Origin: Candidatus Latescibacterota bacterium
GTDB lineage: Bacteria; JAAXHH01; JABIQT01
Reading direction: 5' to 3'
NCBI GenBank assembly: GCA_018667995.1
Contig: JABIQT010000875.1
Location: 1-5,697, forward strand
DNA: 5,697 nt
Shown here: positions 1 to 5,697 of the stretch, in pieces
How positions within the stretch are numbered: the first letter of the stretch is position 1
Layout: every line of letters begins with the position of its first letter
The notes under the pieces: model-generated
Database searches by the model: none
What the model was told of the DNA's origin: nothing
The model's input: the letters and a program-made list of their open reading frames with translations, nothing else
Position numbers and translations under genes: made by a program

Positions 1-1899
1 CGTGGCGAGAAGCACCAGTGCCTGCTTGGGATTACCGGGAGTGGGAAGACTTTTACCATGGCCCACGTAATCCAGAATGTGCAGCGCCCCACACTTGTGA
101 TCTCTCCCAATAAGACCCTTGCCGCGCAGCTCTATGGTGAGTTTAAGAGCTTCTTTCCGGACAATAGGGTAGAGTACTTTATCAGTTATTACGACTACTA
201 CCAGCCAGAGGCCTACCTGCCCACAACGGATACGTATATAGAGAAAGATTCTTCGGTAAATGACGATATCGACAAACTTCGCCTGCGTGCCACCACGGCT
301 TTGCTTGAGCGGAGAGATGTGATCATTGTTGCCTCTGTGTCCAGTATTTATAGTTTGGGGTCTCCTGATGAATGGAAGGAGTTCGTTCTCTCTGTAGAGC
401 GTGGCCAGAGTTACGAGCGCGAAGAACTACTGCATAAACTCATCGATATGCATTATACGCGAAATGACTACGATTTCGCACGGGGCACATTCCGGGTTCG
501 CGGAGATAGTCTTGACATTGTGCCTGCGGATCAGGAACTAGCCATTCGAATCGAGATGTTTGGAGATGAGATTGATCGCATTTCGGAGTTTGATCCGTTA
601 ACAGGTGAAGTGCTCAATGATCTCGAGAACGTGGCAGTATACCCCGCGCGCCATTTCGTAACTACTGCACCACGACTTGAGAAGGCGATAAAGGCTATTG
701 AAGCCGAGTTGGACGAGACTCACAAGAAGATGATCTCCGAGGATAAGCTACTCGAGGCGCAACGTATCGATCAACGCACACGATTCGACCTCGAAATGAT
801 GAAGGAGATTGGGTTCTGTGCCGGGATAGAGAATTACTCGCGCCATCTGTCTGGCCGTAATGAAGGGGATCGGCCCTTCTGCCTGTTTGATTTTTTTCCA
901 AGTGATTATCTGATCGTGATAGACGAATCCCATGTGGCTGTTCCGCAGATACGTGCCATGTACAATGGAGACAGATCCCGGAAGATGACGCTGGTGGACC
1001 ATGGGTTCAGACTGCCATCCGCGCTGGATAACCGACCTCTTACCTTCGAAGAATACGAGAGCATGGTGAATCAGGTGGTCTACGTTTCCGCCACCCCTGC
1101 CGACTATGAGCTCGAACAGAGCAAAGGCGTTTACGTCGAACAAGTCATTCGTCCCACAGGGCTGATGGATCCGATGATAACGGTGATGCCCGTAGAAAAT
1201 CAGATCGATGATCTGGTTTCCCGTTGTCGGGAACGGGCGGAACGCGGAGAACGGGTGCTCGTTACGACTTTGACGAAGCGGATGTCTGAGGATCTTACAG
1301 ATTATCTGCGCGGCCTGGATATCCGTGTGCGTTATCTTCATTCCACGATCGACAGTATTGAGCGAGTAGAAATCCTGCGTGAATTGAGAATGGGACAATT
1401 TGACGTGCTCGTTGGAATAAACCTACTTCGTGAAGGACTTGATCTACCGGAGGTTTCGCTGGTCGCCATCCTGGATGCGGATAAGGAGGGATTTCTCAGG
1501 TCGGAGCGATCGTTGATTCAGACATCCGGCAGGGCAGCTCGGAATGTCAACGGTGAAGTCATTTTCTATGCGGATAGGATCACCGATTCCATGAAAAAAG
1601 CCATGGATGAGACCACGAGGCGAAGAGCCCTGCAAGCAGAATACAACGAAGTCAACGGCATTGTTCCTACGACGATCTATAAATCCATAGATGAGATCAT
1701 GTTGACAACTTCTGTTGCAGATGCTCGCACGGTCGAGGAAGAGATGCCGATACTGAACACATTGGCAAAAATGGATCGTGGAGCGCTGCTCGAAGAGCTG
1801 CGGAGCGCTATGCATGAGGCTGCAGCTAATCTGGAGTTTGAGAAAGCCGCCAAATTGCGCGATGAAATTGGTCGTCTGGAGGCTCAACCCAAGGACTGA
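1..1899 (+). CDS. uvrB: UvrABC system protein B (excinuclease ABC subunit B), 5'-truncated by the window edge
   Basis: UvrB works in the cytoplasm with UvrA and UvrC. It is loaded by UvrA, verifies the DNA lesion with a beta-hairpin and recruits UvrC for incision. The frame is open from base 1, so the ATG at 58 is internal: the Walker A motif GITGSGKT (visible residues 10-17) lies upstream of it. 632 residues are visible. E. coli UvrB has 673, so roughly 30 N-terminal residues are missing here. Other landmarks are [12 protein letters not shown] (motif Ia), the aromatic hairpin [10 protein letters not shown] (residues 63-72), RGTFRVRG in the UvrA-interacting region, DESH (308-311, Walker B/motif II), YVSATP (361-366), [10 protein letters not shown] (motif V) and QTSGRAARN (507-515, motif VI). 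A C-terminal UVR domain, ending in [18 protein letters not shown], would contact UvrC. All ATPase motifs are intact, so it should be functional. The one oddity is Ser in motif VI where E. coli has Ile. No uvrA or uvrC is in view, and no clear terminator follows. Confidence 0.98.
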
Positions 1900-2070: not shown

Positions 2071-3993
2071 ATGTACCGTCCAATCCTCATTTTACTCGTA
2101 GCTGGATGGGCCCTGCTCACCGTTGGGTCCGTAAATGCCCAACCCGGCTGGGTGTCGAAACCACCCGCTGGCAACAGTCTCTATCTCTATGGAGTCGGGA
2201 TCGCCCACGCCACCGATGACAGGATCTATGACCGCCAGCGTGCAGATGACGTGGCTCGTACTGACATTGCCCGTCAACTAAGAGTGACCATCTCCTCGCG
2301 GCTAGTCTCAACGAAAGTGGAGGATGCCGAAGCGGGATTCGCACTCGATACCCGTGAAGTCATCGAGAGCTCGGTTACATTGACCCTCGACGGGGTCACG
2401 ATTCGCGAACGCCACTACGACAAGAAACACAAGACATACTACGCATTGGCTCGATTGAACCGGCAATCAGCAGCTGATCTGGTAGCCGGCAAGATACAGT
2501 CGGCGGCTGAGCGTGCGCGTGGCTATCTCAAGCAGGCAGATAGATTTGATGGAGAGGGCGCTACGTATCGGGCCTTCCTCGCATTGTTACAGTCAGCCGA
2601 CGAACGAGCATCCGTAGAACTGGACGAGAGTATCCACCGGGCGTTGGCAGCTAACTCGGTGGATGCCTTATTGGCGGCGGAGGGGCTCGAATCGCCATTC
2701 ACCCCTACCCAAAACCAGATCGAGAGTCGCATAAACGCGCTGGTTTCAAGCCTCTCTTTTTCCGATGATGTTGGTAGTGGGCAGACGATCGACGGAGGGC
2801 TTATTCAGGACCCGTTGAGCACGCGATTGACTATGGACCGTGCGGGGCAACCGGTGGCTGTCTCCGGGTTTCCAGTCCTCTTTTCCACATCAACGGGAAG
2901 AGCCAAACTTGATCTGCGTGGAACGACGGATAAACATGGCATCATTCAGTCTGTAATACATCAAGCCGGCACGTGTATACATCAATCCTGCACCATCGCA
3001 GCAACAGTAGATACCTCGGTCATCCGGGCCCAGGCACCCGGTGAACAGGTTGATCGTTGGATCGCAAGACTTGGAGACATCCACACGTCGTTCGAACTGA
3101 TGCCCGGATTGATGGGATTTGAAGATGGCATTGGTGAGTTGGCTTGTCGCCTGATTCACGCACCTTCCCTGACTGAAACATATGATCTGCCAACAATCGC
3201 TGTTGCACGATTCACCTACCAGGACACGCGAATCTCGGGACCATTTACAGGCCCCTTGCGCCGGATTATGCAGTCTCAATTGGCGGATATGGATCGGGGT
3301 CGGTTGATCGAGAGGGTGGACTTGTCGGCTGGTACCGCCGAATACGGGGATCCCAATGCCACCGCCACAATAGCTCGAGAGATGCAGGCTGATGTCGTCG
3401 TCTGGGGAGACTATTGGGAATCTGGGGACAGTGTAATTGTGAATGCCAGAATGACCGGATCGGATGGTTCTCGGTTTGCCACTTCCACGGTAATCATTCC
3501 GCGTGACGCCATACCATATCAGGTGCGCCCGCCTGCTCTGGATCCAAACATACCAGCGCCTCCAAAGAATGGCCTACCACTCAAAGTATGGACGGAGCGC
3601 GGTGACGGCGGTCTGTTCGTTGAAGGTGAGCGTCTGACGGCCTACATCACGACAGAATCGGACGGGTACCTGAGGCTTCTCTATCGACAGGTTGACGGTA
3701 GCGTAATACAGATATTCCCGAATCAGTTAAGCGGCGACGAACGAGTGTCTGCCGGCCAGGTTTACAGTATACCGGATGTGGATGACGGATTCGATTATGT
3801 GGTGCAGGCTCCTTTTGGTGTGGAGTACCTGATAGCCGTCGCAGGTGCGACGCCGTTTCCCCGATTGCCGGGTCGCGAGGTAAACGGCGGCGTTCTGCTT
3901 CAGGGCTCCGTTCGCGATGTAATTCAGCGGCTAACAGGTGGCCGGACCTGGTATGGCCAGGCCATTTGCCGTCTAACTACGGTTGGCCAGTGA
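2071..3993 (+). CDS. Secreted multidomain envelope protein: LPP20, FlgO/CsgG-like and DUF4384 domains
   Basis: A 640-residue protein of unknown function, predicted to be exported. Residues 1-23 form a signal peptide (hydrophobic ILILLVAGWALL, cleavage after VNA). No lipobox is present, so it should be soluble in the periplasm or on the surface. Residues 24-142 resemble LPP20/FlgP-like lipoprotein domains: PGWVSKPP, YLYGVG, then alternating helix and strand ending in YYALARLNR. Residues 143-205 look helical. Residues 250-320 are beta-rich, with a TCIHQSC cysteine pair (C302, C307) that might form a disulfide. Residues 373-480 resemble the FlgO/CsgG/TolB-N fold (LPTIAVARF, LRRIMQSQLADM, ADVVVWGDYW). 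Residues 503-598 match DUF4384 (LPLKVWTERGDGGLFVEGE, YLRLLYRQVDGSVIQIFPN, FGVEYLIAVA). The gene ends 20 bases before the caspase-like lipoprotein gene, suggesting an operon. Export and the LPP20 and DUF4384 calls are firm. The FlgO-like call is moderate and the function is open. LPP20 and FlgO domains are known from Vibrio FlgP and FlgO, but no flagellar gene is in view. Confidence 0.92.
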   Translation: MYRPILILLVAGWALLTVGSVNAQPGWVSKPPAGNSLYLYGVGIAHATDDRIYDRQRADDVARTDIARQLRVTISSRLVSTKVEDAEAGFALDTREVIESSVTLTLDGVTIRERHYDKKHKTYYALARLNRQSAADLVAGKIQSAAERARGYLKQADRFDGEGATYRAFLALLQSADERASVELDESIHRALAANSVDALLAAEGLESPFTPTQNQIESRINALVSSLSFSDDVGSGQTIDGGLIQDPLSTRLTMDRAGQPVAVSGFPVLFSTSTGRAKLDLRGTTDKHGIIQSVIHQAGTCIHQSCTIAATVDTSVIRAQAPGEQVDRWIARLGDIHTSFELMPGLMGFEDGIGELACRLIHAPSLTETYDLPTIAVARFTYQDTRISGPFTGPLRRIMQSQLADMDRGRLIERVDLSAGTAEYGDPNATATIAREMQADVVVWGDYWESGDSVIVNARMTGSDGSRFATSTVIIPRDAIPYQVRPPALDPNIPAPPKNGLPLKVWTERGDGGLFVEGERLTAYITTESDGYLRLLYRQVDGSVIQIFPNQLSGDERVSAGQVYSIPDVDDGFDYVVQAPFGVEYLIAVAGATPFPRLPGREVNGGVLLQGSVRDVIQRLTGGRTWYGQAICRLTTVGQ

Positions 3994-4013: not shown

Positions 4014-5697
4014 ATGGATAAACCCCTTTCCCCGCAGGCACAAAAGACTGATAGCAGGGCCGTCAGATGCTTTGCTGCGTTGTTGTGTCTGGTGATATGC
4101 CTCTCTTGTGCGGGCACGCAGACGGTATCTTTCATGGGATACCAACCGCCGGACTACGACGTGTCCCTGGTTAAAAGCCTTACGATCGTTGGTTTTGAAT
4201 CGGATCGCCACGAGATGGGTGTCTCTGTGAAGTCCCATCTCATCCAAAGCTTGATGGGACATGGATATTTCACTGTGGCGGAATCAGACCGAGCGGGGGG
4301 AGGACGGTCCTATAGCGGAGATCCAGCCGGGATTGTGGAACTGGGGCGGCGAATGCAGGTGGATGCCGTGATAACCGGGACCGTCAGTGGATCCGTAGAT
4401 GACAACTATACTACGCAGAAGAACTCGAAGCGTGTGCTCACACGATATAAGACAGTCGTCGAGTATGAATCCAGACGTGTCAAAGAGAAGGTAAAAGTCA
4501 GGGTGAAGGAAAAAGGAAAATGGGTAGAACGCGAGAAGACTGTAACCACTGTGAAGCGGGTGCCCACGGAGCGAAGGGTTCCGGTATATGAGCATGTCAA
4601 CTACACCGAGAGATATCTTCATCGCAAAGGAGCACTCACGGTTAACCTTAGAATCGTCGATGTGCTGACCGGTAATGTACTGGCCTCACGCACTGCCTCA
4701 CACGATGAAAAGTACAGACAACTGATCTCCTCGAATGAACCGCCTGCCAAGCGAGCACGACGTTCTGATGGTTCAGTAGGCGGGCTATTGACAGCCATAG
4801 TTGATGCAGCCGTTAGTGGGAGCGCAAATCGCACCTACAACGGTCGTCTTCCTGCCCAGAACGAGATCATCGCATCGCTGTCTCAGAAAGTCGCGTCCGA
4901 GTTGGCGGACCAATTGTCACCGCGGCAGATTAGTATCGTTCGGCAGTTGAAGAAGGACAAATCAGGGAAGGCCGGTGTGGCCATGGCACGAAACGGGCAA
5001 TGGGAGCAGGCCGCCCGATTTTGGAGTAGGATTCGTGAACAGGAACCTGCTAACGCGACCGTGTGGAACAACCTCGGAGTATTCTACGAGCATGACGGTC
5101 AATATGCCGAAGCGCGAACCGCCTACCAGCAGGCAGTGGATATGAATCCCAGTGATCGTGTCTTTCAAAGAAATCTGAATGCACTCACTTCCCTGGTGGA
5201 GTCGATGCAGCGTCAGACGGCCGCCCTGGGAGCCAAGATGGAAGTGACCAGTCTTGGGCTACTCGTGGCCAGTGTCCTGGATGGTACACTTGCTGAACGT
5301 CTTGGACTGAAGAAAGGTGACATTGTGGAGCGAGTCAACAGTGTCCCAATGGCGACGCAGGATGAACTGGAACGTGCCATCATTCAAACCACTAAATTGG
5401 GCGCCGAATTGAATGTAGATGTAATGCGGGCAGGTGAACGATTAATTCTTGAGCTGACACTTGGTGACGGGCGCCGACCCCTTGCCGATATTTCCGCTGT
5501 GGATGTTCCTGATCATACCGCTCCTGTTGACTATGAGCCAGTGGTAGACGTTGATCAAGTTGTTGACTCGCGATCAGATCGCCCAGAAGCTCTTGGCGTG
5601 ATAATTGGTGTAGAGGAATATAGATACGCACCGGCTGTTCCATATGCGCGGCATGACGCGATGGTCGCCCACGAGTATTTCGTACGCGCTCTGGGAA
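4014..5697 (+). CDS. Probable lipoprotein: CsgG/FlgO-like domain, TPR, PDZ and caspase-like (C14) domain; 3' end beyond the window
   Basis: One frame of 561 codons without a stop, cut by the right edge. Residues 16-31 are a hydrophobic signal segment ending LSC, with C32 the likely lipidated cysteine followed by AGTQT. The lipobox is imperfect because position -3 is Cys. Residues 50-134 and about 206-235 look like a CsgG/FlgO-type alpha/beta domain (VKSLTIVGFES, VDAVITGTVSG, LTVNLRIVDVLTGNVLAS). It is split by a Lys/Arg/Val-rich insert at 135-205. Residues 320-382 hold about two TPR repeats (WNNLGVFYEHDGQYAEA, AYQQAVDMNPSD). Residues 408-484 are a PDZ domain (LAERLGLKKGDIVERVN, MRAGERLILELTLG). 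An acidic linker follows at 492-522. From 527 the sequence LGVIIGVEEYRYAP and the conserved-looking YARHDA match the first strand and helix of bacterial caspase-like (peptidase C14) domains. The catalytic His and Cys are outside the window, so activity cannot be judged. It probably acts at the inner face of the outer membrane or at the periplasmic side of a membrane. It is likely cotranscribed with the preceding gene. Confidence 0.9.
   Translation, partial: MDKPLSPQAQKTDSRAVRCFAALLCLVICLSCAGTQTVSFMGYQPPDYDVSLVKSLTIVGFESDRHEMGVSVKSHLIQSLMGHGYFTVAESDRAGGGRSYSGDPAGIVELGRRMQVDAVITGTVSGSVDDNYTTQKNSKRVLTRYKTVVEYESRRVKEKVKVRVKEKGKWVEREKTVTTVKRVPTERRVPVYEHVNYTERYLHRKGALTVNLRIVDVLTGNVLASRTASHDEKYRQLISSNEPPAKRARRSDGSVGGLLTAIVDAAVSGSANRTYNGRLPAQNEIIASLSQKVASELADQLSPRQISIVRQLKKDKSGKAGVAMARNGQWEQAARFWSRIREQEPANATVWNNLGVFYEHDGQYAEARTAYQQAVDMNPSDRVFQRNLNALTSLVESMQRQTAALGAKMEVTSLGLLVASVLDGTLAERLGLKKGDIVERVNSVPMATQDELERAIIQTTKLGAELNVDVMRAGERLILELTLGDGRRPLADISAVDVPDHTAPVDYEPVVDVDQVVDSRSDRPEALGVIIGVEEYRYAPAVPYARHDAMVAHEYFVRALG

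Follow-up and report, generated by a model that had tools for sequence, protein, structure and literature searches.

The window, the complete 5697-base contig G000:C401 of a Candidatus Latescibacterota MAG (6.06 Mb in 1165 contigs), encodes an exported fusion protein in which a CsgG/PelC-type domain, TPRs and a PDZ domain precede a C14 caspase-like domain. It forms a conserved gene pair with an upstream LPP20-DUF4384 gene, and the linkage of DUF4384 to C14 domains recurs far beyond this locus. This linkage is a more general and more testable result than the domain combination itself. The features of the window are as follows.

2071-3993, + strand: upstream gene, exported LPP20 - FlgO/CsgG-like - DUF4384 protein of 640 aa (Pfam)
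3616-3855, + strand: DUF4384 domain of the upstream gene (PF14326, 76.9 bits)
4014-5696, + strand: truncated fusion gene with export signal, CsgG/PelC-type domain, TPR, PDZ and C14 start (orthologues P0001 and P0002)
4014-4109, + strand: lipoprotein-type signal sequence (LVICLSC-AG) up to Cys32 (codon 4107-4109), the Cys being invariant in three proteins
4110-4919, + strand: CsgG/PelC/FlgT-like domain, residues 33-302 (Pfam CsgG borderline; DUF6340; model match)
4365-4661, + strand: predicted single long charged beta-hairpin, residues about 118-216 (AF2 on an orthologue, pLDDT about 60-83)
4953-5216, + strand: TPR region, residues about 314-401 (TPR_2, E 9.6e-11; residues 330-417 of the orthologue model match TPR structures)
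5223-5462, + strand: PDZ domain, HtrA/DegP type by profile, residues 404-483 (PDZ_2, E 1.5e-9)
5580-5696, + strand: start of the C14 caspase-like domain, 39 residues (match to positions 1-39 of profile A4, E 8.7e-16)

The cut gene is preserved full length in related genomes

The fusion frame stays open for 561 codons without a stop. Because the window is a whole contig, the gene runs past its end and is cut short ahead of the C14 catalytic residues. The missing part was not found on other G000 contigs, where a WD40-caspase paralogue on contig C283 is the one further close copy; this was rejected as the completion of the cut gene, being a different gene that carries WD40.

Among 59 relatives searched, we found orthologues in G013, an uncultured-bacterium MAG from the same order as the source (CAJXCW010000064.1; 781 aa), and in G001, a Candidatus Latescibacterota groundwater MAG (JACQVL010000319.1; 793 aa), whose identity to the window protein, over nearly its whole length, is 52 and 55%. 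Scanning the genome contigs with the truncated protein gave no match; a three-sequence profile recovered both. In the orthologues Peptidase_C14 scores 57.4 and 62.8 bits (Pfam cut-off 21.4), and the match spans nearly the entire model. The order of signal, CsgG-like, TPR, PDZ and caspase-like domains read in the initial annotation is thus borne out by Pfam profiles and by full-length proteins that, rather than stopping without a C14 fold, run through the domain and end there. Profile recovery of C14 holds for both orthologues and fails for the window protein itself, where Pfam misses the domain because only about 39 residues are present; in alignment these are 76-85% identical to the full-length orthologues.

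The His/Cys dyad (GHG, DACFSG) is intact in both orthologues, and His and Cys are kept in 34/34 aligned C14 domains. Joined to the PDZ domain by a variable linker, C14 is the best-conserved part of the protein, with 73% identity between the full-length orthologues versus 47% in the CsgG-like part, a pattern that constraint on catalysis would predict. An assembly chimera or chance reading might be suspected, as the contig ends within the gene and the MAG is fragmented, but the same full-length fusion stands beside the same partner gene in two independent assemblies. The fusion is therefore not an assembly chimera, and we consider this explanation refuted, its probability being practically nil.

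The N-terminal part combines a lipoprotein-type signal with a PelC-like predicted fold

A hydrophobic signal ends at the invariant cysteine (Cys32 in the window protein), with Ala or Ser as the next residue. Both orthologues match the strict PROSITE lipobox; the window protein, with a Cys at -3, does not, but it shares the invariant cysteine and the hydrophobic stretch. The clear export signal and the invariance of Cys32 in all three proteins strengthen the initial reading of an envelope lipoprotein. Cys32 is the putative site of lipidation, and outer-membrane placement rests on the lipoprotein sorting rule known from E. coli.

The following domain had been annotated as CsgG/FlgO-like. By sequence this is borderline, with Pfam CsgG at 20.9 bits in the window protein and 20.5 and 22.2 in the orthologues (cut-off 20.8), while the predicted fold sustains it. 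DUF6340 is recognized in the window protein at the junction with the TPR region (Pfam, 29.4 bits vs cut-off 26.4). An AF2 model of the G001 orthologue, built from a three-sequence alignment and with pLDDT mostly 60-89 over residues 66-258 and 330-400, matches PelC (Z 13.2, rmsd 2.6 over 129), FlgT (Z 11.4, rmsd 3.0 over 134) and CsgG (Z 10.3, rmsd 4.9 over 154). The fold match covers residues 60-320, with a low sequence identity of 9-18% to these proteins. In profile searches against solved structures, the CsgG-like profile matched CsgG alone (E 0.21) and the C14 profile gave no match at E 0.01.

PelC, FlgT and CsgG form rings at the outer membrane, and PelC belongs to the Pel exopolysaccharide export system. 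The window protein shares their predicted fold and differs by the added TPR, PDZ and protease modules and by one long hairpin. This hairpin is predicted to consist of two Lys/Arg/Glu-rich strands of about 48 residues each, and its stretch is 58-66% identical, above the rest of the CsgG-like domain. Whereas CsgG has two membrane hairpins that form an outer-membrane channel, the three-sequence model has a single, highly charged one. Outside residues 66-408 of the G001 orthologue the model, based on three sequences, is of poor quality (pLDDT 55 or less in the C14 region), which leaves both the hairpin and the placement of PDZ relative to C14 uncertain.

The source order also encodes, close to genes for Rieske protein and cytochrome b, a CsgG-like/TPR lipoprotein of about 340 aa that lacks a caspase domain (L112:1764-2840, L113:1392-2414, L114:1974-2975 and L111:1451-2503). 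The N-terminal half of the fusion probably derives from it.

The TPR and PDZ modules named in the initial annotation were both recovered by profile in the window protein. PDZ_2 scores 38.5 bits there and 29.1 and 39.9 bits in the orthologues (cut-off 27), and the domain best matches PDZ profiles of the HtrA/DegP/DegS type. HtrA/Do profiles align over the PDZ part only, with scores far below their cut-offs and no trypsin-like domain. Like DegS and DegP, the fusion would be an envelope protease with an HtrA-type PDZ proposed to sense peptides; here, however, the protease is of the caspase-type cysteine class, the PDZ precedes it and the trypsin-like domain is absent. No PDZ was found in other caspase proteins among the frames of our small survey, using a profile from three close sequences.

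DUF4384 genes adjoin C14 genes in many families

The upstream protein matches LPP20 (E 2.1e-7), DUF4384 (E 2.7e-20) and FlgO (E 0.011) in Pfam; its structure prediction is poor (mean pLDDT 41). Its gene lies on the same strand and stops 20 bases ahead of the fusion start, the gap being 3 and 46 bases in the orthologues. Each of the three genomes with the fusion also has the LPP20-DUF4384 gene beside it, a pair conserved in G001 and G013, and both genes are missing from 12/12 genomes of genus g3. In G011 a homologue of the upstream gene is cut by a contig end, and no C14 gene was found. The 3' part of uvrB occupies positions 1-1899 (+ strand) directly upstream of the pair, the contig starting inside uvrB. 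The order uvrB, LPP20-DUF4384 gene, fusion is the same in G013, and the G001 contig stops at the LPP20-DUF4384 gene. A separate small LPP20 lipoprotein of 189 aa lies 3' of the caspase gene in G001 (L035:7048-7617) and was not seen there in G013.

We mapped DUF4384 and C14 in 31 genomes picked for C14 matches, not for DUF4384. Among 51 DUF4384 matches, 34 have a C14 domain within 5 kb; in 28 cases the two domains occupy separate frames and in 6 they share one. The separate pairs, from 19 genomes and 17 families, are on the same strand in 27/28 cases. Random placement predicts 0.5 such neighbors; matches within one genome are partly non-independent and contig structure is left out of this null, yet the excess goes far beyond what these effects would explain. 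Counted by genome, a DUF4384 gene adjoins a C14 gene in 19 of the 28 that have DUF4384.

Fusions of DUF4384 with orthocaspases are described in cyanobacteria (PMC8283722) and alphaproteobacteria (PMC6426788), and the accessible parts of these two papers do not mention separate DUF4384/C14 gene pairs. The domains are linked in both settings, in one fused protein in those accounts and in separate adjoining genes here and in the 17 families. A literature search for LPP20 with DUF4384 found no paper. In the distant genome G355, a putative lipoprotein of 817 aa (L118:2471-4921) carries LPP20 fused straight to C14, and in G241 an LPP20...DUF4384 protein adjoins C14 genes.

Proposed function of the fusion

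In bacteria, caspase homologues have mostly been viewed as cytoplasmic proteins with roles in death or conflict. The best reading of the present protein, to which we give about an even chance, is an envelope protease that is guided by its PDZ and TPR modules, is carried on a ring-type lipoprotein scaffold and works with the DUF4384 partner. The lipoprotein would be exported and held at the outer membrane via Cys32, facing the periplasm. Its PelC/CsgG/FlgT-type domain would act as the scaffold, probably as a ring or other oligomer and perhaps through the long hairpin, while the TPR and HtrA-type PDZ would bind peptides or C-termini of envelope proteins. Clustering or ligand binding may then activate the C14 domain, which would cleave substrates in the envelope and serve in envelope stress or assembly control, with the upstream LPP20-FlgO-DUF4384 protein as its putative partner or regulator. 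Lipidation, the oligomer, proteolytic activity, PDZ-guided substrates and stress role are what we infer; counted in favor of an envelope protease are the orthologue dyad, the C14 conservation, the HtrA-type PDZ, the ring-family fold, the conserved gene pair, the DUF4384 linkage and the LPP20-C14 fusion. Counted against it are the end of the window protein ahead of the catalytic residues, the poor model around PDZ and C14, and the restriction of the fusion to three genera.

The main rival, which we regard as unlikely, places the ring-type lipoprotein in an export or surface-assembly apparatus like those of PelC and CsgG, where the protease would process an exported polymer or protein. The closest fold is indeed that of PelC, from Pel exopolysaccharide export, followed by FlgT and CsgG, and the partner has LPP20 and FlgO-like domains, as in outer-membrane flagellar ring proteins. 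However, no secretion, curli or polysaccharide gene was recognized among the neighbors (uvrB, rhomboid, LPP20 lipoprotein and unrelated genes), and in the model one highly charged hairpin replaces the CsgG membrane hairpins.

It is less probable still that the protein is a self-killing or anti-phage effector whose PDZ and TPR sense damage before the protease triggers death. Effector roles in death or conflict are discussed for C14 proteins with WD40, NACHT or FGE (PMC3501461, PMC8195603), and the PADLOC caspase model gives a weak match (E 3e-12). Yet an export signal with a lipoprotein cysteine fits a cytoplasmic role poorly, no NTPase, nuclease or effector gene adjoins, and the EACC1-type caspase model NCBIfam NF047832 scores 82.6 and 68.6 bits against a cut-off of 140. 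With so weak a PADLOC match and neighbors without an effector, we do not favor an anti-phage assignment. Pseudo-orthocaspases exist (PMC6426788), and the C14 domain might by analogy serve for binding, without catalysis, in a structural lipoprotein; the retention of His and Cys in both orthologues and in all aligned relatives makes this the most doubtful of the three alternatives.

For the preferred envelope protease, the combination of an exported C14 branch, here putatively lipid-anchored and PDZ-guided, with DUF4384 across 17 families points to an envelope role and provides a testable partner. If true, quality control or signaling in the envelope would involve caspase-type proteolysis alongside the HtrA, Tsp and rhomboid enzymes.

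Distribution and relatives of the C14 domain

The fusion occurs in 3 of the 16 genomes surveyed from the phylum (genera g1, g2 and g5) and in 0/12 genomes of g3, and we saw the PelC/CsgG-TPR-PDZ-caspase combination only in three genera of the source order. In 384 diverse genomes the CsgG-like profile gave no further full-length match; with the C14 profile, relatives came to light in 28 more genomes. Front modules of these relatives include WD40, LamG with CARDB, FG-GAP, Sel1, ankyrin, TPR and LPP20. A signal-like N-terminus is found in 25/35 related caspase-domain frames, several of the rest being cut by contig ends, versus 42/106 other frames on the same loci as a crude control. Export is therefore common in this C14 branch and not special to the window protein. 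The initial claim that an envelope-anchored bacterial caspase is unusual in itself is weakened, since most relatives are signal-like and several lipoprotein-like. The unusual features are the PelC/CsgG-TPR-PDZ module ahead of the protease and the recurring DUF4384 neighbor, which the initial annotation had not pointed out, rather than the envelope location.

A 2012 survey reported metacaspases with N-terminal helices that are probably signal peptides, and C14 orthocaspases/metacaspases with accessory WD40, TPR, Sel1 and FGE (PMC3501461). Those proteins likewise join a His/Cys-dyad C14 domain to protein-interaction modules, many with signal-like N-termini, whereas the carrier here has an outer-membrane lipoprotein fold. 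The main text of the survey does not mention PDZ, and a literature search for caspase, CsgG and PDZ together found no paper.

In the tree, the sister group of the fusion's C14 domain is formed by the C14 domains of two WD40-C14 proteins of the source order (G000:C283 and G013:C12), with group support of 98/99 and 61-65% identity. In these paralogues a WD40 propeller replaces CsgG-TPR-PDZ, and the complete one lacks a lipobox. One C14 lineage has thus been joined to two front modules. It is possible, though somewhat short of an even chance, that exported C14 proteases with swappable sensors and a DUF4384 partner constitute a widespread undescribed two-gene envelope system, of which this locus would be the PelC/CsgG-scaffold variant with PDZ and TPR sensors.

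Two neighboring frames (596 and 554 aa) at G000:C945:3957-6297 hold further strong C14 domains (133 and 128 bits), both scoring higher in Pfam than the C14 domain of the fusion. The closest C14 relatives outside the source order are encoded on G151:C52, where a 1299-aa WD40 protein with two C14 domains (L091:4318-8214) adjoins a LamG/CARDB-C14 protein.
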